Positions 3,732 to 13,087 of a DNA stretch of 31,518 nt are shown piece after piece. Numbering within the stretch: the first letter of the stretch is position 1; each line of letters opens with the position of its first letter. The position numbers and the translations under genes were made by a program. The notes beneath the pieces are model-generated. The model searched no databases. It saw nothing but the letters and a program-made list of their open reading frames with translations, and was not told the DNA's origin. The stretch is from a virus: positions 1-31,518 of the IMG/VR virus record IMGVR_UViG_3300045135_001294. One strand, written 5' to 3'.

Positions 3732-3877
3732 TGCCTGGATTGTACGACAACATCAACGCTCGCAAGAAGGCTGGGACATCTCGGCCTAAGAGCAAGTCAA
3801 CCATCAGTGACAAGACGTATTCTTTGATGCGTCGCAAGGCTGGCGGATTTAAACCGAAAGGAAAAGACAATGGCTAA
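3731..3877 (+). CDS. Tiny basic protein (48 aa)
   Basis: This 48-residue protein starts with MPGLYDNINARKKAG, then a Ser, Lys and Arg-rich middle with TSRPKSKSTIS and a Lys/Gly-rich end. Its ATG shares one base with the preceding stop, and its own stop overlaps the next gene by eight bases (ATGGCTAA). The MPGLY.NIN.R opening is one I recall from many short phage proteins of unknown function. The three consecutive tiny basic proteins (3609-4163) look like one functional set, perhaps virion-associated DNA-binding proteins, but this is only an inference from charge and order. Confidence 0.75.
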   Translation: MPGLYDNINARKKAGTSRPKSKSTISDKTYSLMRRKAGGFKPKGKDNG

Positions 3878-4163
3878 GTCACCAGCATGGCAGCGCAAAG
3901 AAGGTAAGAACCCAAAGGGCGGACTCAATGCAAAGGGCCGCGCTTCTTACAAGGGTGGAACACTGAAGGCGCCTGTTAAATCTGGTGACAATCCTCGACG
4001 CGCAAGTTTCCTAGCTCGTATGGGCGGCATGCCTGGACCGGAATACAAGGATGGTGAACCGACCAGGCTGCTTCTTTCTCTTCGAGCCTGGGGTGCTAGC
4101 AGCAAGGCGGACGCCAAGAAGAAAGCTGCTGCTATCTCAAAGCGCAATAAAGCGAAGGCATAA
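3870..4163 (+). CDS. DUF6321-like phage protein
   Basis: This 97-residue, very basic protein opens with MAKSPAWQRKEGKNPKGGLN and continues with AKGRASY, a GGTLKAPV block, and ARMGGMPGP near residues 49-57. This block order is familiar from a conserved phage family of unknown function, which I believe is DUF6321. The family often has paired 'GKNPxGGLN' and 'RMxGMPGP' motifs, both present here. It overlaps the previous gene by eight bases and is the last gene of the plus-strand unit. Its stop codon lies in the A-tract that serves as the U-tract of the opposing terminator. Confidence 0.8.
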   Translation: MAKSPAWQRKEGKNPKGGLNAKGRASYKGGTLKAPVKSGDNPRRASFLARMGGMPGPEYKDGEPTRLLLSLRAWGASSKADAKKKAAAISKRNKAKA

Positions 4164-4197
4164 AAAAGGGCCAGCCGCGAGGGAAAGCAGCTGGCCC
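4162..4197 (-). terminator. Rho-independent terminator, minus-strand recombination operon
   Basis: An 8-bp perfect stem, GGGCCAGC (4168-4175) with GCTGGCCC (4190-4197), has a 14-base loop. Read on the minus strand it is followed by six U (4167-4162). It lies just past the last minus-strand gene (stop at 4219) and overlaps the stop codon of the convergent plus-strand gene. Confidence 0.8.
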
Positions 4198-4199
4198 AG

Positions 4200-4234
4200 T
4201 GACTAGCTATAGGGGTCGCTAGTCAGTTTTCATT
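4200..4234 (+). terminator. Probable terminator of the plus-strand lysis unit
   Basis: An 8-bp perfect stem, TGACTAGC (4200-4207) with GCTAGTCA (4218-4225), has a 10-base loop and is followed on the plus strand by GTTTTCATTTT. It is less GC-rich than the opposing hairpin and its right arm covers the stop of the 49-residue minus-strand gene, so part of the symmetry may be coincidental. Confidence 0.5.
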
Positions 4235-4368
4235 TTACCTCCAACCATAAACCTAGGGCTACGGCTGAATTTCACTTTAGACCTCGTGTAGCGCTTATTA
4301 AATTCGTTCTCTCGCTTCAGAGACTTGCACCACTGGTCCAATGTTTTGGTCCAGGATGCAGCGCTCAT
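4219..4368 (-). CDS. Small protein at the end of the recombination operon (49 aa)
   Basis: This is a 49-residue basic protein starting MSAASWTKTLDQWCKSLKRE and ending with RSPRFMVGGKMKTD. Its ATG overlaps the preceding gene's TGA (ATGA), and GGAGGTGA lies 6 bases upstream, one of the best ribosome-binding sites in the window. Both facts argue strongly for translation. It is the last gene before the terminator of the operon that encodes an exonuclease and ERF, so a minor role in recombination is possible. No family recognised. Confidence 0.75.
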   Translation of the reverse strand: MSAASWTKTLDQWCKSLKRENEFNKRYTRSKVKFSRSPRFMVGGKMKTD

Positions 4369-4694
4369 CGGAAGTCACCTCCACCAGCGTAACCTTGATC
4401 TTCTTTCGGCTTGTTACCGAACAACTTTACTCGGCCAACAATCGGCCATGACCTGGCGTCTGCAGAGTTCTTGTGCTGCAGCGTGATCTGCAGTTCAGCT
4501 CCTGCTGCAAGCAGCTGCTGGAACAGCTGCTCAACGATTGCTTCCTGCTGCGGAGTCATCGGTACTGGACGGTTTGCGTTATCGTCCCAGCCATTGTTGA
4601 TCTGCAGCCAGGCGCTTGCGCGATACTCCTGGTTCGGGATCAGTGACTCTTTGAATGTAACCTTGCTGTTACCCATGTGTGGTGCATTTGCCAT
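4365..4694 (-). CDS. Hypothetical protein, possibly SSB-like
   Basis: This 109-residue protein has AAGGAG about 8 bases upstream of its ATG. It has beta-prone segments (KVTFKE, YRASAWLQINN, AELQITLQ, IVGRVKLFG) around a helical middle (TPQQEAIVEQLFQQLLAAG), and a flexible Gly-rich end (GYAGGGDFR). Small size, beta-rich core, Gly/acidic tail and position straight after the ERF gene fit a single-stranded-DNA-binding partner, since phage annealing proteins are often encoded next to an SSB. The helix in the middle is not typical of a plain OB fold, so this is only a suggestion. Confidence 0.6.
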   Translation of the reverse strand: MANAPHMGNSKVTFKESLIPNQEYRASAWLQINNGWDDNANRPVPMTPQQEAIVEQLFQQLLAAGAELQITLQHKNSADARSWPIVGRVKLFGNKPKEDQGYAGGGDFR

Positions 4695-4705: not shown

Positions 4706-5500
4706 TTAGAATGGAATCTCGTCATCATCAGATACGCCTGCCTTTTTCTTGAGGTCGGCTAGCACATCTGCTGGTTTTGGATCAGGCTCGGTGCCTGTTG
4801 TGACCGCTGGCTGCGGATGATTGTCAACGTATGTCTTCCTGGCTTTCCAGGCTGCGAGTACGTCCTGGTAGAGCGCATTGTCCTGGACCGCTAGAGTCTG
4901 CAGGTGATCATCGTTCTCCTCTGCCCAGGCGCGAAGCTGCCCACCAGTAGCCAGGGTTTCAAACTTTGCTTTGGCTGCGGAACAAAACTGTTTCCAGTTC
5001 TTACCTTCCGATACCTGCATTGCATTGTTTGCCGGTGTACTAGCGGGCGCTGCCTTTTTTGTTGATGCCTGCGACGCAGCAACAACTTTGTTTGCTACCG
5101 CGTAGCCACTCTCAGGCTTCGCAGCGTCGTCATCTTCCTGGGCAATACCCAAGGCTGCAGCCAGGGCATAGCGTCGAGCGTAGGTAATTACGCTGCCTGC
5201 TGCCTGCGCTGCTGACATCTTGGCTGCAGTTTCCATCGGCAGCTGCGTCTCTGATTTAATCCACTGACCCGAAGAGTGTAGGATCATCGTTGATACAGTC
5301 ACGCCTGACTCTGATTTGCCTGGCATCTGGATTACAGACAGGCCATGCTTGCTCAGCAGCGGCCTGACAACATCCAGGATTTGCGCAAGGTCTGCATACT
5401 TGTAGCCATATCCAGACTTATCCTTGCTTACGTTGTTGACCTCGCCCTGGAATTTGCTCAATGCAACTCCAAGCTCGGTCATGTTTTCTGACATTTCCAT
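4706..5500 (-). CDS. erf: ERF-family single-strand annealing recombinase
   Basis: This 264-residue protein would pair complementary single strands during phage recombination and genome circularisation. The N-terminal ~140 residues match the ERF family (PF04404): KDKSGYGYKYADLAQILDVV, then LLSKHGLSVIQMP, a TM.LHSSGQW block, and the hallmark AAQAAGSVITYARRYAL followed by LGIAQEDDDA. The C-terminal half is less ordered, with a Lys/Ala/Pro linker, a helical segment around residues 165-225 and an acidic tip (DDDEIPF), like SSB or annealing-protein tails. The start has TAGGAG 7 bases upstream. It follows the exonuclease gene, giving the usual exonuclease plus annealing-protein pair. Confidence 0.93.
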   Translation of the reverse strand: MEMSENMTELGVALSKFQGEVNNVSKDKSGYGYKYADLAQILDVVRPLLSKHGLSVIQMPGKSESGVTVSTMILHSSGQWIKSETQLPMETAAKMSAAQAAGSVITYARRYALAAALGIAQEDDDAAKPESGYAVANKVVAASQASTKKAAPASTPANNAMQVSEGKNWKQFCSAAKAKFETLATGGQLRAWAEENDDHLQTLAVQDNALYQDVLAAWKARKTYVDNHPQPAVTTGTEPDPKPADVLADLKKKAGVSDDDEIPF

Positions 5501-5508
5501 AACGTCTC

Positions 5509-6441
5509 CTATTTAAAAATCCGTCGCGCTTCTTCCAGGTAACCAGGTGGTTCCTTCCAGGCCAGGTCATCAAAGTTTGGTACTACCCACTCGAGCAGCT
5601 CCTCTTTGGTTTCTGATGCCTTGAGCATTTTCTCTGTCAGCTTGTGCATGCGTGACGTCTCGGCCACTACCTGCTCCAGGTACTCAGGCTGCAGCTGCTC
5701 GCAGTTCTTCTCGTTCAGGATCGTGTAGTCGTTCCCGTTCGAGTAGAGCAGCCAGACAGGCTTCTTGCCATTGATCCACCAGCCACCGGCTACCTGGTAC
5801 ACGTTGTTCAGATCGAACATGCCCGATAGATCTTTCGGCAGCGAGGCTTCAGAGAATCCTTTCTTGGTCCTGGTATTGCGCTTCGGCCACTTGGTCTTGA
5901 GATCTCCAACGCCTACATAGTCTGGCTTGTTGAAGTGTTCAATCTGGTTACCAGGCAAGCAGCCTTTGAGATCAACCTCACCGAACAGTCGGTCAGCCTG
6001 GCTCATTGCTTCGCGCAGTCCTTCGACGCTGCACATAATGACGTCGATCAGTTTTCCCTGGCAATTGGTCCAGTCTTCCGCATCAATGCCACCATCCCAG
6101 TCTCGAGGCTCATACGCCATGTACTTTTCCATCGCGTGTTCGTACACCCAGGCAGGGTCCTTGTTCTGCAGCAAGATCTTGTCGCAGGCATCCTGGACTA
6201 CAATCCCACCGAACATCTTGGCGCTCGCTGATTTATTCATTGACTGATCCAAGCGAATGATGGTGTTAAACGCATCCTCGCGGTCGTGGTCAGTCGCCCA
6301 GTCACTCCGGTATATGTCCCATGCCTGCTTCACCAATGGGCGCACATGCGCCTTGTCAAAGAGAGTCTTTGCCAGTGGTTTGCTGCGAGGATTCGAGTGA
6401 TGCCAGTAGTGGTGCCTGGCTGCCCATTCTGGCGCGCTCAT
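5509..6441 (-). CDS. PD-(D/E)XK exonuclease (phage recombination)
   Basis: This 310-residue nuclease probably resects double-stranded ends to load the ERF protein encoded next. The catalytic signature is P173-D174, five residues, then D180-L-K182 (KPDYVGVGDLKTK). An acidic residue upstream (E155 in GEVDLKG) could be the helix Glu, and a downstream Gln (Q216 in NNVYQVAGGWW) fits the QxxxY-like helix of RecB/Cas4-type exonucleases. Its size fits phage exonucleases of this superfamily. The ATG overlaps the stop of the upstream HTH frame (ATGA). Exact family membership (RecB-like or YqaJ-like) cannot be settled by eye. Confidence 0.85.
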   Translation of the reverse strand: MSAPEWAARHHYWHHSNPRSKPLAKTLFDKAHVRPLVKQAWDIYRSDWATDHDREDAFNTIIRLDQSMNKSASAKMFGGIVVQDACDKILLQNKDPAWVYEHAMEKYMAYEPRDWDGGIDAEDWTNCQGKLIDVIMCSVEGLREAMSQADRLFGEVDLKGCLPGNQIEHFNKPDYVGVGDLKTKWPKRNTRTKKGFSEASLPKDLSGMFDLNNVYQVAGGWWINGKKPVWLLYSNGNDYTILNEKNCEQLQPEYLEQVVAETSRMHKLTEKMLKASETKEELLEWVVPNFDDLAWKEPPGYLEEARRIFK

Positions 6442-6590
6442 ATGATACGCCCTGACTGTTGGTTCATCTCTTTCAAGATTTGATAGATGCGGCCCTGGGT
6501 GATGCCATGCTTTTTAGCCAGGGACTTTGGTGCAATCCCATCCAGGTAAGCGAAATAAATATCTAGGTCTCTTTGGAGGTTCTTGCGATT
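6438..6590 (-). CDS. HTH domain, apparent -1 frame extension of the 82-residue gene
   Basis: These 50 residues (from NRKNLQRDLDIYFAYL to the TGA overlapping the exonuclease start) form a clear helix-turn-helix: a helix ending in YLDG, then SLAKKHGIT, then the recognition-type helix QGRIYQILKEM. This frame has no ATG, GTG or TTG start near the domain; the only ATG in frame is far upstream at 6815. It is in the -1 frame relative to the gene at 6811-6563. A five-A run at 6593-6589, where Lys-AAA could slip, lies just before the domain. A frameshift would give a 124-residue fusion. Alternatives are a non-AUG start (for example ATT after AAAGAG), a base error, or a long 125-residue frame from 6815. 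Confidence 0.6.
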   Translation of the reverse strand, partial: NRKNLQRDLDIYFAYLDGIAPKSLAKKHGITQGRIYQILKEMNQQSGRII

Positions 6591-6811
6591 TTTACCAGCA
6601 CCGTTGTGTACCAGCCCGGAACTCTGTCGTACACAATCTGTACGTCCTTCCGATTCTCCAGCATCCGGTCCAGGTAATACGAAAACCTTGCGGAGTCCCC
6701 TCCGTAAAACAAGAAGGCAGCCTTCAAAGAACCCAGCGGCTCCATTGTCCCCTGCAGCTGATCGATGGCTGCTTCCATCGCATACAGCTGGTCCCGATAA
6801 TTGCTTTTCAT
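6563..6811 (-). CDS. Small protein upstream of the exonuclease (82 aa)
   Basis: This 82-residue protein starts MKSNYRDQLYAMEAAIDQL and has aromatic-rich segments (AAFLFYGGDSARFSYYLDRML, then DRVPGWYTTVLV) typical of a folded domain. Two ATGs lie in ATGAATG at 6815 and 6811. The ribosome-binding site AGAGG is 8 bases from the first and 12 from the second, so spacing favours 6815, which opens the other frame. However, residues in the 6815 frame look non-coding over this stretch (Gly, Ser and Arg rich). The stop is a TAG 26 bases after a possible slip site that leads to the HTH frame. It is the first gene of the recombination operon; no family recognised. Confidence 0.6.
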   Translation of the reverse strand: MKSNYRDQLYAMEAAIDQLQGTMEPLGSLKAAFLFYGGDSARFSYYLDRMLENRKDVQIVYDRVPGWYTTVLVKIARTSKET

Positions 6812-6938
6812 TCATAGATAGTACCTCTTTTTTGTTTATGGTTTGCCGATAATGCCTACATGTGACCAGAAAAGCAACACCCTATCTGGAGAGACGTTAG
6901 TGCTTGACCAAATAAGCGCCAGGTGTACTGTAGACCGC
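6812..6938. promoter_or_regulatory. Divergent control region of recombination operon and regulator
   Basis: This gap separates divergent genes and must hold both promoters. It contains GTGACCA at 6862-6868 and TTGACCA at 6904-6910, each a half of the dyad found in the two early promoters (9303-9319 and 10933-10949). TTGACC at 6904-6909 could be a -35 for the plus-strand genes, but the -10 at 16-17 bases is poor. A GGAG at 6888-6891 lies 8 bases before a GTG at 6900 that could be the regulator's start instead. No convincing minus-strand -10/-35 pair was found; CATTAT near 6855 is a weak candidate. Confidence 0.45.
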
Positions 6939-7157
6939 ATGAAACTTGATACTTGGCGGAAAAAGAAGGGCCATTCATACCGGGGTCTCGCCACCCTGGT
7001 CGGTGCATCGCATGCAAGCGTGGTGCGCAGGTGGTGCCAACCGATGGACCATCCGGATTTCAGAATCCCTGGTCCAACTTACATGCTGCGCATTTTCGAG
7101 ATCTCTCACGGGGAAGTGCAGCCTAACGATTTTTACCTGGAGCGAGAGCATGGCTAA
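6939..7157 (+). CDS. Cro/CI-like HTH transcriptional regulator
   Basis: This is a short (72-residue) DNA-binding protein. It opens MKLDTWRKKKGHSYRGLATLVG, with ASHASVVRRWC as the recognition helix, and ends with GPTYMLRIFEISHGEVQPNDFY. A first helix, LA..VGAS...V.RW and a 'P.....I..IS.GEV.P.DFY' ending is the common layout of phage Cro-like proteins. ATG 6939 fits the usual domain start but has no good ribosome-binding site. GTG 6900 has GGAG 8 bases upstream and would add 13 residues. It is divergent from the recombination operon and a reasonable candidate for binding the TTGACCA...TGGTCAA operators. Confidence 0.75.
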   Translation: MKLDTWRKKKGHSYRGLATLVGASHASVVRRWCQPMDHPDFRIPGPTYMLRIFEISHGEVQPNDFYLEREHG

Positions 7158-7987: not shown

Positions 7988-8466
7988 TAGAACGGCACTC
8001 CTGGTCCAACAATGTTTCGTAAGTAGAGCAGCGCGAGACCGTATTTTTCTGCGCGCTTGTAGTCTGCCTTGCCTGGGTTAGGGATTCGATCTAGGTCCAT
8101 GTTGTCTTCGAGATCATGCATTTTGACGACTCGTGCTAACTCGTTACGTCCGCAGCGCTCGATGAACTCATGGTACGGCTCGCCTGGTTCTTTAGTGATG
8201 GCTCGCAGCGCGTTCATGATGTCACCGTCCAGACCAATGCCCAGGGCCTCGGCAATGTCGCACTCGTCAATGTCGCTGTCTTCAAGGACATCATGCAGCA
8301 CACCGACAATGTATCGGCTGTCCCACAGGCCAGGCGCTGCGTTTTTACTCGCAGCTTCAGCAACACGCATTGGGTGGAAGATGTAAGGCGCGCCTGCTTT
8401 ATCGACCGCGCCCTCGTGGGCCTTGGCTGCGATAGCCAAGGCAATTTCTCGTTTGTTTAACATCAT
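7987..8466 (-). CDS. HD-domain hydrolase, RelA/SpoT (MESH1)-like
   Basis: This 159-residue metal-dependent phosphohydrolase probably acts on (p)ppGpp or a related nucleotide. The HD signature is complete: AHEG near the N terminus, FHPMRVA, GVLHDVLEDSDI (HD pair followed by ED), and a distal VVKMHDLEDN. This matches the hydrolase domain of RelA/SpoT and stand-alone small alarmone hydrolases; no synthetase domain is attached. ATG 8466 is preferred because it overlaps the upstream stop (ATGA); the longer frame from 8499 lies inside that gene. It could keep the host growing by removing alarmone during infection. Substrate is inferred from family only. Confidence 0.85.
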   Translation of the reverse strand: MMLNKREIALAIAAKAHEGAVDKAGAPYIFHPMRVAEAASKNAAPGLWDSRYIVGVLHDVLEDSDIDECDIAEALGIGLDGDIMNALRAITKEPGEPYHEFIERCGRNELARVVKMHDLEDNMDLDRIPNPGKADYKRAEKYGLALLYLRNIVGPGVPF

Positions 8467-8732
8467 GCAACCACCACTAACACGCCTGGGTTGTGCCACT
8501 CAGCGTAGCACTTGAACTTGTCCAGGATTTTGACGACGGCCAACTTCACACCGCAGCAGTCGTACAATCCACCGTCCCGGTAGTAGTCGCCAGCCATGCC
8601 AACTTCGTCACCGCACCAGACCTCGCAGTTAAGAGCCAGGTCGCCCTCTTTTTCCCAGTCTTCCATCACGGCTTTTTCGTAACCTGCTTTGACCAGGGCC
8701 TTCACAATGCGTTCTCTCAATTTTGCTTTCAT
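8463..8732 (-). CDS. Hypothetical early protein
   Basis: This 89-residue protein starts MKAKLRERIVKALVKAGYEK, has an acidic middle (MEDWEKEGDLALNCEVWCGDEVG), a CC pair in YDCCGVKLA, and a hydrophobic last segment (PGVLVVVA). ATG 8732 has AGAGGG 6 bases upstream, better than the GTG at 8735. It overlaps the HD hydrolase start by four bases, so the two are probably coupled. No family recognised. Four cysteines suggest possible metal binding, but their spacing does not match a motif I know. Confidence 0.7.
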   Translation of the reverse strand: MKAKLRERIVKALVKAGYEKAVMEDWEKEGDLALNCEVWCGDEVGMAGDYYRDGGLYDCCGVKLAVVKILDKFKCYAEWHNPGVLVVVA

Positions 8733-10949: not shown

Positions 10950-11008
10950 TACCTTATGTCAAAAAAAGTTTGGTACAGTACGCAGCAAGGCGTTCGGGAG
11001 AGAGATCA

Positions 11009-11410
11009 ATGCCCAGGAAACCACGAGTAACTAAGCAGCAGTTCAAGACGATCTGCGAGCAGCTGGCCGAAGGGCGCAGCTTGATGAAGATTTGTAGCCA
11101 GGACGAAACGCTGCCTTCCTGGCGCACAGTGCTGCGACACATCCAGGAAGATGACGAAGCGCACGATGAGTATCGGAAGGCGAGAGCGATCCAGGCCGAA
11201 GTGCTGCGAGACGAGATCATTGAGATTATCGAAGCTCCGCTGCCTGACGATCCAAAGCTCGCCCAGGCTGAAGTCGGAAGGCGTCGCCTCGAGGTCGAGC
11301 AGAAAGATAAGTATGTGCGGCAGCTGCAACCACTCGGGATTCGGAACAAGGCAGCTGACCAGGATTCAAAGGTCCAGGGAACAATTACGCTGAAATGGGG
11401 CGAAGAGTGA
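11009..11410 (+). CDS. terS: Terminase small subunit
   Basis: This 133-residue protein should recognise phage DNA for packaging. The N-terminal helix-turn-helix is visible: QFKTICEQLAEGRSLMKICS, then LPSWRTVLRHIQED as recognition helix. A charged oligomerisation helix (ARAIQAEVLRDEIIEII) and a C-terminal Lys-rich tail (ending TLKWGEE) follow, as in Sf6- or lambda-type small terminases. ATG 11009 has GGGAG about 9 bases upstream; the TTG at 10970 would overlap the control region and is unlikely. It lies upstream of terL, but the ~380-base gap between them is unusual. Confidence 0.85.
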   Translation: MPRKPRVTKQQFKTICEQLAEGRSLMKICSQDETLPSWRTVLRHIQEDDEAHDEYRKARAIQAEVLRDEIIEIIEAPLPDDPKLAQAEVGRRRLEVEQKDKYVRQLQPLGIRNKAADQDSKVQGTITLKWGEE

Positions 11411-11791
11411 CAGTCCAGGTACATAAAGGGTACAGGTCTCTGCTGCTCTTTATATGGCTGAGAGCTACAGAGAAGCTCCAGGAGCAATGCTTGGCTGCCA
11501 AGCTAAGCTACCAGGCACGGTGCGGGTTTCAGAGCGAACCTGGGCTTTTAGAGAAGGTGAGAGTGAACCTGGTGTTGATGCTGTTGAACGTAGGAATCAA
11601 CGCTGAGTGTCAGGGATCGCGCGCACGAGACGCAGGAAAAGGCCAGGATGAGGCGATGATCCTGGGTCGATGTCGCATAACGGATATTATGTTAAATGGT
11701 GATCTGGCTTTTTTCGGTAATCCGGACCCCTACCCACCCCAGAAACAGCCCGCCAGCGCTAGTGCTGTAATATCCCTGTTCAGGAGTGTCT
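11411..11791. other. Gap between terS and terL (no confident gene)
   Basis: This is the largest gene-poor stretch in the window. A plus-strand frame is open over it (11395-11805, 136 codons), but it overlaps terS and the terL start, and its composition looks non-coding. A second possible small gene (11454-11606, MAESYREAPGAMLG...) has no ribosome-binding site. It holds an ATAAAG/CTTTAT inverted pair around 11420-11453 and the dif-like site at 11670-11697. A non-coding cos/pac or recombination region is the likeliest reading. Confidence 0.5.
11670..11697 (+). other. dif-like XerC/XerD recombination site
   Basis: The right arm TTATGTTAAAT (11687-11697) is identical to the XerD-binding arm of E. 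coli dif (11/11). The left arm ATGTCGCATAA (11670-11680) shares CGCATAA with the XerC arm. The six-base centre CGGATA (11681-11686) differs from TGTATA at two positions, keeping ATA next to the XerD arm. CATAA/TTATG symmetry flanks the centre as in real dif sites. It lies in non-coding DNA between terS and terL. Such sites in phages and plasmids serve integration by host XerC/XerD or dimer resolution. Confidence 0.7.
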
Positions 11792-11797
11792 TTGATC

Positions 11798-13087
11798 GTG
11801 ACTGAGATACGCATCCCGTACACACCAAGAGCAATGCAGGCTGACCTGCATAAGCAGCTTTCTGCGAAGCGCTGGGGCGTTGTTGTCTGTCATCGTCGAT
11901 TTGGCAAGACGGTGATGGCTATCAACCACCTGCTGCGCGATGCAATCCTTTCTGAGAAGACGAACCCTAGGTATGCCTACATTGCGCCCACCTATCGCCA
12001 GGCAAAGAACGTGGCCTGGGATTACCTGAAGCAGTTTGCAGGTGCTATCCCGATGGTGCGGTTCCATGAGACTGAGTTGAGGGCTGACCTACCCAATGGC
12101 AGCAGGATTCAGTTACTTGGTGCGGAGAACCCGGATAGCCTACGGGGAATCTATTTGGATGGTGCCGTTCTCGATGAGATGGCCGATATGCCAGAGAGTT
12201 TGTTCCCAGAGATCATTAGACCTGCCCTGTCGGATAGAAAGGGGTGGGCCTTGTTCATTGGTACACCGAAAGGCCATAACGCTTTCTATGAGCTGTTTGA
12301 GGCTGCCCAGGCACAAGATGATTGGTACACCAAGGTGTATAAGGCGAGTGAGACCGGAATCCTAGATGACGAGGAACTGGGTGCAGCCAAGGCGATGATG
12401 TCGCCAGATCAGTTTGAGCAAGAGTTTGAGTGCAGCTGGGTTGCGAATGTGCCAGGTGCGATTTACGGAAAAGAGCTGCAAGAGATCTCAGAAAAGGGGC
12501 GCATCAATGATGTGCCGTATGATTCCTCTGCATTGGTAGATACCTGGTGGGACCTGGGTGTTGGCGATAGTACCGCGATCTGGTTTACCCAGACGATTGG
12601 GCGGTCCATCCATGTGATTGATTTCTACGAAAACCGGAATGAAGGATTGCCGCATTACAAAGAGGTCCTGCAGCAGAAGGGGTACATCTATGGTACCCAC
12701 AATGCCCCGCATGATATTGAGGTCCGGGAGTTAGGCAGCGGGAAGTCCAGGAGAGAGATTGCGTATGATCTAGGCATCAACTTCCGGGTTGTTCCGAAGT
12801 TACCGGTTGAGGATGGGATTCATGCAGCGCAGCTGCTGATCAGTCGCTGTTGGTTTGATCGAGTGATGTGCAAGGAGGGGCTGGAGTGTTTGCGACAGTA
12901 CCATCGTGCGTATAATCAGAAAACCAGGAGTTTCCGGGCGACACCGGTACACGATTGGAGTTCGCATGCTGCGGACGCTTTTAGGTACCTGGCTGTTGGT
13001 TTACGAGAGTCCAGACAATTTGATAGACCACCGCAGGCGTTTGCGGATTCGGATTACAACCCACTAGGAGCGAGATCGTATGGGTAA
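11798..13087 (+). CDS. terL: Terminase large subunit
   Basis: This is the DNA-packaging motor with ATPase and nuclease. Counting from GTG 11798: the P-loop-like VVCHRRFGKT has K37 and T38; Walker B is GAVLDE with D126 and E127; the coupling motif GTPKG is at 155-159. The C-terminal RNase H-like nuclease has WWDLGVGDST (D252, D257) and a distal Asp in SSHAADAFRYL (D393). At 429 residues it has a normal length for T7/P22-type terminases, and all key residues are present. AGGAG at 11782-11786 is 5 bases before TTG 11792 and 11 before GTG 11798; GTG 11786 overlaps it and is unlikely. Confidence 0.95.
   Translation: MTEIRIPYTPRAMQADLHKQLSAKRWGVVVCHRRFGKTVMAINHLLRDAILSEKTNPRYAYIAPTYRQAKNVAWDYLKQFAGAIPMVRFHETELRADLPNGSRIQLLGAENPDSLRGIYLDGAVLDEMADMPESLFPEIIRPALSDRKGWALFIGTPKGHNAFYELFEAAQAQDDWYTKVYKASETGILDDEELGAAKAMMSPDQFEQEFECSWVANVPGAIYGKELQEISEKGRINDVPYDSSALVDTWWDLGVGDSTAIWFTQTIGRSIHVIDFYENRNEGLPHYKEVLQQKGYIYGTHNAPHDIEVRELGSGKSRREIAYDLGINFRVVPKLPVEDGIHAAQLLISRCWFDRVMCKEGLECLRQYHRAYNQKTRSFRATPVHDWSSHAADAFRYLAVGLRESRQFDRPPQAFADSDYNPLGARSYG

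Follow-up and report, generated by a model that had tools for sequence, protein, structure and literature searches.

Why should a tailed phage without an integrase carry a recombination site of the dif type in its packaging region? The question is raised by the window (the whole stretch of DNA analysed here, a virus record of 31,518 bases with 50.7% G+C), in which a 28-bp site of this type lies in the 375-base gap between the terminase genes terS and terL (Table 1).

A dif-like site between terS and terL

The site, ATGTCGCATAACGGATATTATGTTAAAT, consists of two 11-bp arms around a 6-bp centre (ATGTCGCATAA-CGGATA-TTATGTTAAAT), an arrangement that is shared by the relatives. It matches E. coli dif at 11/11 positions of the XerD arm, at 7/11 of the XerC arm, where CGCATAA is intact, and at 4/6 of the centre, where ATA adjoins the XerD arm. 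The sequence-only reading had pointed to the identical XerD arm, the common CGCATAA and the ATA, and all three are borne out by the exact sequence. The outer four bases of the XerC arm are variable in host dif sites also.

There is no second copy of the XerD arm in the window, even at one mismatch, and the 18-base invariant pattern CGCATAA-N6-TTATGTTAAAT occurs only once. The chance of an exact match to the 11 bases had been put at 1 in 4 million. This is right for one position, but the fair figure is that for the whole window, in which 8e-7 occurrences of the 18-base pattern are expected by chance (order-0, both strands). A matrix derived from published proteobacterial dif sites (PMC2731167) was used to score the regions before terL; the PSSM score of the site is 31.7 and the rest of the window does not exceed 12.1. 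A case for chance similarity could be made from the XerD arm alone, an AT-rich 11-base match that carries little weight and that 21 of 100 shuffles equal at one mismatch or fewer. The low expectation for the full pattern, and its recurrence, in the same place, among many relatives and unrelated clades, speak against this explanation, which is refuted by the comparative data and to which we give next to no credence. We are almost certain that the site is a real Xer-type (dif-like) site, dif being the site at which bacterial chromosomes are resolved.

Table 1. Features of the window that bear on the dif-like site
Feature	Position	Strand	Evidence or remark
ERF single-strand annealing protein	4706..5500	-	Pfam PF04404, E 6e-30
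Empty integrase address	4164..4364		between 97-aa gene (3870-4163, c42) and 109-aa gene (4365-4694, c80 type)
CI-repressor address	6442..6938	-	small unrelated ORFs here (6438-6815, 6563-6811)
Cro-like HTH protein	6939..7157	+	39-100% identity across clade A; common to temperate relatives
terS, Sf6-like small terminase	10970..11410	+	Pfam PF20901 (Sf6_terminase), E 9e-22
Overlapping ORF, 136 aa, probably not a gene	11395..11805	+	poorly conserved between conserved flanking genes
28-bp dif-like Xer recombination site	11670..11697	+	exact sequence, conservation beside terL in relatives, PSSM
XerC arm ATGTCGCATAA	11670..11680	+	CGCATAA as in dif; outer four bases variable
6-bp centre CGGATA	11681..11686	+	differs from host TGTATA
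XerD arm TTATGTTAAAT	11687..11697	+	identical to E. coli dif (11/11); no second copy in window
terL, large terminase	11786..13087	+	Pfam PF03237 (Terminase_6N), E 4e-14

The block of terL, portal and capsid genes is about 66% identical in DNA sequence to that of Pelagibacter phage HTVC010P. The virus had been described as a T7-like tailed phage; tailed it is, but in view of this likeness it is better stated to be an HTVC010P-like podovirus. In the closest relatives the terS-terL gap is 76-85% identical, yet 26-28 of the 28 bases of the site are kept. Because the site is retained in so divergent a gap and the protein is poorly conserved, the 136-aa ORF that runs over the site is probably spurious. 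Elsewhere in the window, positions 7990-8499 in the leftward block give a weak HD-domain match that is below the Pfam cut-off.

The site in relatives, in a second terminase clade and in cultured phages

The HTVC010P-like terminase clade to which the window belongs is referred to here as clade A, and a second terminase clade as clade B. In the nearest relatives (91-95% TerL identity) the site has the same orientation and precedes terL by about 116 bases. The counterpart of the window's centre is CGGGTA in L122, L123 and L124. Relatives with 82-85% TerL identity carry the site in the opposite orientation, 149-182 bases before terL, and it is present again in more distant relatives at 134-353 bases. 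Scanning IMG/VR for the 18-base pattern matched at least 120 stretches, many of which are clade B (TerL PHROG 5902/2, TerS PHROG 1482), with the site adjoining terS. A match was found in 47/50 records searched, nearly all of which have exactly one copy; the other three are relatives lacking the gamma-type site and were included deliberately. The remainder of each clade A or clade B locus is without sites, and 1,377 kb of other loci contain a degenerate dif pattern only nine times. Variants with lower scores carry less certainty when taken one by one, yet their position is the same wherever they recur; the generalised pattern alone was not taken as proof of any individual low-scoring site in clade B.

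No site was found near terL in cultured HTVC010P-type pelagiphages, nor in Rhodoferax phage P26218. The AT-rich match near terL in L125, L128 and L129 is apparently inside terS and was taken as chance, and two contigs with odd centres (G122 and G229) were set aside because they are not phage-like in appearance. A 155-kb virus record (L025) has two dif-like sites on the same strand (280-303 and 376-399), 96 bases apart, one of them with a mismatch.

The arms of the phage sites fall into three host dif types when compared with published sites (PMC2731167): gammaproteobacterial, Comamonadaceae and Rhizobiales. Gammaproteobacterial arms (TTATGTTAAAT) are those of the marine members. Rhizobiales-type arms (TTATGGAA-type) are present in four clade A loci, and the arm of L177, TTATGGAATAT, is identical to that of Bradyrhizobium. 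The Comamonadaceae-type arm TTATGTTAAGT is paired with ...ACACGA or ATACGA, and freshwater clade B phages have ATTTAACACGA-TGTCCA-TTATGTTAAGT and variants of it, to which the dif of Rhodoferax, ACTTGATACGA-TGTATA-TTATGTTAAGT, is close (PMC2731167). In the freshwater clade B loci (L330-L376, upstream of terL) the XerC arm is widely variable while the centre TGT[CT]CA and the greater part of the XerD arm are kept, which is the reverse of the marine pattern. The alignment with host dif that the sequence-only reading had proposed thus yields three arm types that match published sites, and on this comparison of sequences the arms follow the dif types of host lineages.

Cultured phages were searched by BLAST of canonical dif against phage records and then with a phage-type query. 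The site is present across the Vequintavirinae of Escherichia, Salmonella, Klebsiella, Cronobacter, Pectobacterium, Erwinia and Serratia, and Seuratvirus coliphages such as VogelGryff also carry it. Like VogelGryff, the Vequintavirinae JohannBauhin and WalterGehring, which bear the site, are members of the BASEL collection. The rV5 site (L427, 3003-3030) is GGTGCGCATAA-TAGGTA-TTATGTTAAAT, which matches E. coli dif at 11/11 positions in the XerC arm, 3/6 in the centre and 11/11 in the XerD arm, and it lies within a gene-free gap of about 2.6 kb. Further centres in cultured phages are CGTGTA, GGTGTA, TGGGTA and CGTGTT. In the other Vequintavirinae and Seuratvirus loci (L421-L425 and L428-L434), too, the arms resemble those of host dif and the centres do not, and most of the gaps in which these sites lie have no annotated gene. 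The non-coding block that holds the site in rV5-type phages is usually flanked by convergent gene blocks and is not beside terL. Published work describes rV5 as a lytic phage whose circularly permuted genome has a non-coding block (PMC3606486), and the CB7 genome is reported to be circularly permuted (PMC7344957). In the Ounavirinae Pseudomonas phage vB_PsaM_M1 (L426, 3999-4026) the sequence TCTTCGCATAA-TGGTCA-TTATGTTAAAT lies in a gap between gene blocks. A full-text literature search of limited scope, which is not proof of novelty, found no description of dif-like sites in these cultured phages; Mizuno et al. 2013 (PMC3861242) was considered as an earlier report and rejected, as Xer papers are merely cited there in passing.

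Taken together, these comparisons indicate that evolution has preserved the site in a number of unrelated groups of integrase-less tailed phages. It had been foreseen that related phages might lack the site; many relatives keep it by terL or terS, in two terminase clades, and the occurrence of a Xer-type site in the packaging region of such a phage, which the sequence-only reading had singled out, holds good.

Lysogeny genes, centres and integrated copies

Clade A relatives that bear an integrase have a tyrosine integrase beside homologues of the 97-aa and 109-aa genes, about 9-10 kb before terL; temperate clade A relatives have a CI-like repressor of about 220-290 aa between exonuclease and cro. 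The window has no PF00589 integrase. Neither CI nor integrase, the pair by which we would recognise a temperate phage, is present in the window or in the site-bearing clade A relatives with enough sequence (9/9), and cro remains. Among the clade A records that cover the CI region, the site is present in 0/12 with CI or integrase and in 9/10 with neither (the nine include the alpha-type L173); the Fisher P value of 2e-5 overstates independence, because the exclusion between integrase and site is partly one deep split in the TerL tree. On that tree no fewer than five changes are required for the gamma-type site label, and two alpha-type pairs (L173/L177 and L161/L162) lie inside the temperate group. 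L173, close kin of the temperate L171 and L178, bears a site of alpha type and has only short matches to int and CI; together with L410, it looks like a phage caught after the loss of lysogeny. One relative, L129, has neither lysogeny module nor site. Clade B provides no test of the exclusion, since no integrase was found in any of the 37 records searched, whether or not they bear the site.

We compared the centres of 42 terL-linked phage sites with those of 133 chromosomal sites from 369 gammaproteobacterial genomes. The chromosomal centre is TNNATA-like, and 120/133 (90%) have NNNATA, as against 3/42 phage sites, the window among them. Positions 2-4 of the centre hold 0.08-0.14 bits in phages versus 0.65-1.54 in the chromosomal sites. 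The phage centre is Y-N-N-N-Y-A: constraint persists next to the cleavage points, at positions 1 (T/C), 5 (C/T) and 6 (A), as would be expected if recombination were still catalysed. The spacing is constant at 6 bp in the sites examined. The first three bases are TGT or TAT in only 6/42 phage sites and CGG in the window, so that pairing with host dif on the XerC side is generally lacking, the freshwater clade B (TGT) being exceptional. Integration of CTXphi depends on pairing in the exchanged centre (PMC3089051). A site that needs to match only itself is free to drift, and the centre pattern therefore favours self-recombination over insertion at dif. This suggests that host XerC and XerD would recombine the phage's own DNA rather than insert it into the chromosome.

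A search for prophages ending at dif, which had been proposed as a check, found no site-bearing prophage. In GTDB (one genome per species) there are 110 clade A relatives, the best of which is 60% identical, and none of the 80 examined has a site at the expected place. These TerL relatives (L200-L279, 36-60% identical) are in Desulfovibrionaceae, Rhodospirillales, Rhizobiales and others. No contig of the 369 gammaproteobacterial genomes has paired sites, 399 Burkholderiales genomes contain only remote relatives of clade B terL with no site nearby, and megablast of the rV5 and VogelGryff regions against 5,426 complete E. coli genomes gave no match. Because uncultured hosts are under-sampled, the missing integrated copies are moderate evidence. 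One Methylophaga MAG (G078) has two dif-type sites (C2:35-58 and C3:21851-21874), one at the extreme end of a contig, which may be an assembly break at a Xer-inserted element.

Possible roles of the site and comparison with known systems

With somewhat more confidence than doubt, we favour the reading that the site is a self-recombination site for host XerCD that serves to circularise or monomerise phage DNA. Host XerC would bind at 11670-11680 and host XerD at 11687-11697, and two copies of one phage site would exchange strands over the centre. These copies would come from terminal redundancy, or from dimers or concatemers made by replication or recombination. Incoming DNA would be circularised, or multimers reduced to circles, much as by Cre at loxP in P1, where a single self-recombining site near pac circularises terminally redundant DNA. 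A site beside terS and pac would fall within the redundant ends of the headfuls that initiate a series, and the drifted centre would keep the phage out of chromosomal dif. The binding and recombination by XerCD, the step through terminal redundancy and the benefit to the phage are what we infer from the comparisons above. The wider proposal is evenly poised in our judgement: several unrelated groups of tailed phages, including lytic coliphages, would have acquired a host-matched Xer site and would use host XerC/XerD, with no recombinase of their own, for circularisation or monomerisation in lytic growth, the centres differing so that recombination stays between phage copies.

The site is single and in clades A and B lies beside terS/terL, a location that would be suitable for circularising headful-packaged DNA; in rV5-type phages it lies elsewhere. 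With contig ends as a proxy for virion ends, 8/33 contigs of at least 15 kb end within 1.5 kb upstream of terL at no fixed base; contig ends are scattered round the genome, and no exact end overlap was found in eight near-complete genomes. Both orientations of the site occur, and self-recombination tolerates either. Several points count against self-recombination. Clade A phages encode single-strand annealing proteins that could circularise DNA, XerD at chromosomal dif normally needs FtsK, and the centres of freshwater clade B, which have TGT in common with host dif, vary less freely than those of marine members. The existence of L129 and the single deep split behind part of the integrase/site exclusion weigh on the same side. 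The position of the site in Vequintavirinae argues against proximity to pac as a general feature, and since the rV5-type site is away from terL, multimer resolution may be the more general role.

The sequence-only reading had instead taken the site for an attP, at which XerCD would insert the phage at dif and split terS from terL. On this view insertion would proceed as in CTXphi, VGJphi and other IMEX, and the integrase would have been lost because the host supplies the recombinase. This would account for the absence of an integrase from clade A phages with the site and its presence in most relatives without it; the ATA of the window's centre and the TGT that begins freshwater clade B centres fit it too, and lysogeny by way of dif-like sites has been reported for non-tailed dsDNA phages (PMC9966536, PMC10589892). 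However, CI is missing along with the integrase, the genome scans show no prophage at dif, most phage centres differ from the host's although pairing there decides integration (PMC3089051), and the site is carried by lytic coliphages, E. coli genomes having no match to the rV5 and VogelGryff regions. These results do not support the claim; we consider integration unlikely as the general role, and possible for some members, especially the freshwater clade with TGT-initial centres.

Persistence as a circular plasmid, with the site resolving dimers like cer, psi and pdif, would explain a single copy, a self-identical centre and the lack of an integrase. We think it rather improbable, as no replication-initiator or partition gene is among the ten window proteins searched, CI is absent and rV5-type phages are lytic (PMC3606486). 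Finally, XerC/XerD (or FtsK) might be bound with no recombination, being recruited or titrated by a decoy, or the site might mark a boundary of transcription or replication. The place of the rV5-type site between convergent gene blocks and the better conservation of arms than of centre agree with such a role, but the conserved Y1, Y5 and A6 by the cleavage points are not obviously required for binding alone, nor does the constant spacing favour it, and we regard it as very unlikely.

If self-recombination is correct, XerCD gains a role in the DNA processing of lytic phages; in the literature surveyed, phages use XerCD for integration, and the users are filamentous or non-tailed elements. Because arms follow host dif, Xer-site arms would also be a host-lineage marker for uncultured phages. 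Cultured E. coli phages allow the idea to be tested immediately.

Among known systems, P1 differs in that it encodes its own recombinase, whereas host enzymes would act here. Chromosomal dif/XerCD (Carnoy and Roten 2009, PMC2731167) has in common with the phage site the two 11-bp arms, the 6-bp centre, the arm sequences and the single copy; the phage site is in phage genomes, and its centre is unlike that of the host and varies between close relatives. The attP sites of the IMEX CTXphi, VGJphi and TLCphi (PMC5357621) are also dif-like sites of integrase-less phages that rely on host XerCD. Those phages are filamentous and integrate, whereas the phages described here are tailed, some of them lytic, lack their own integrase just as IMEX do, have no integrated copy at dif in the genomes scanned and have centres that in most cases do not pair with host dif. 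Asemoviridae NO16 and Jorvik-like phages (PMC9966536, PMC10589892) share dsDNA, dif-like sites and the lack of an integrase, but are non-tailed and temperate, with known prophages. The plasmid sites cer, psi and pdif (PMC5357621) are Xer sites that also recombine with themselves, for which a match between centre and dif is not needed; cer has accessory proteins and an 8-bp centre, in contrast with the plain 6-bp centre found here in a virion genome.
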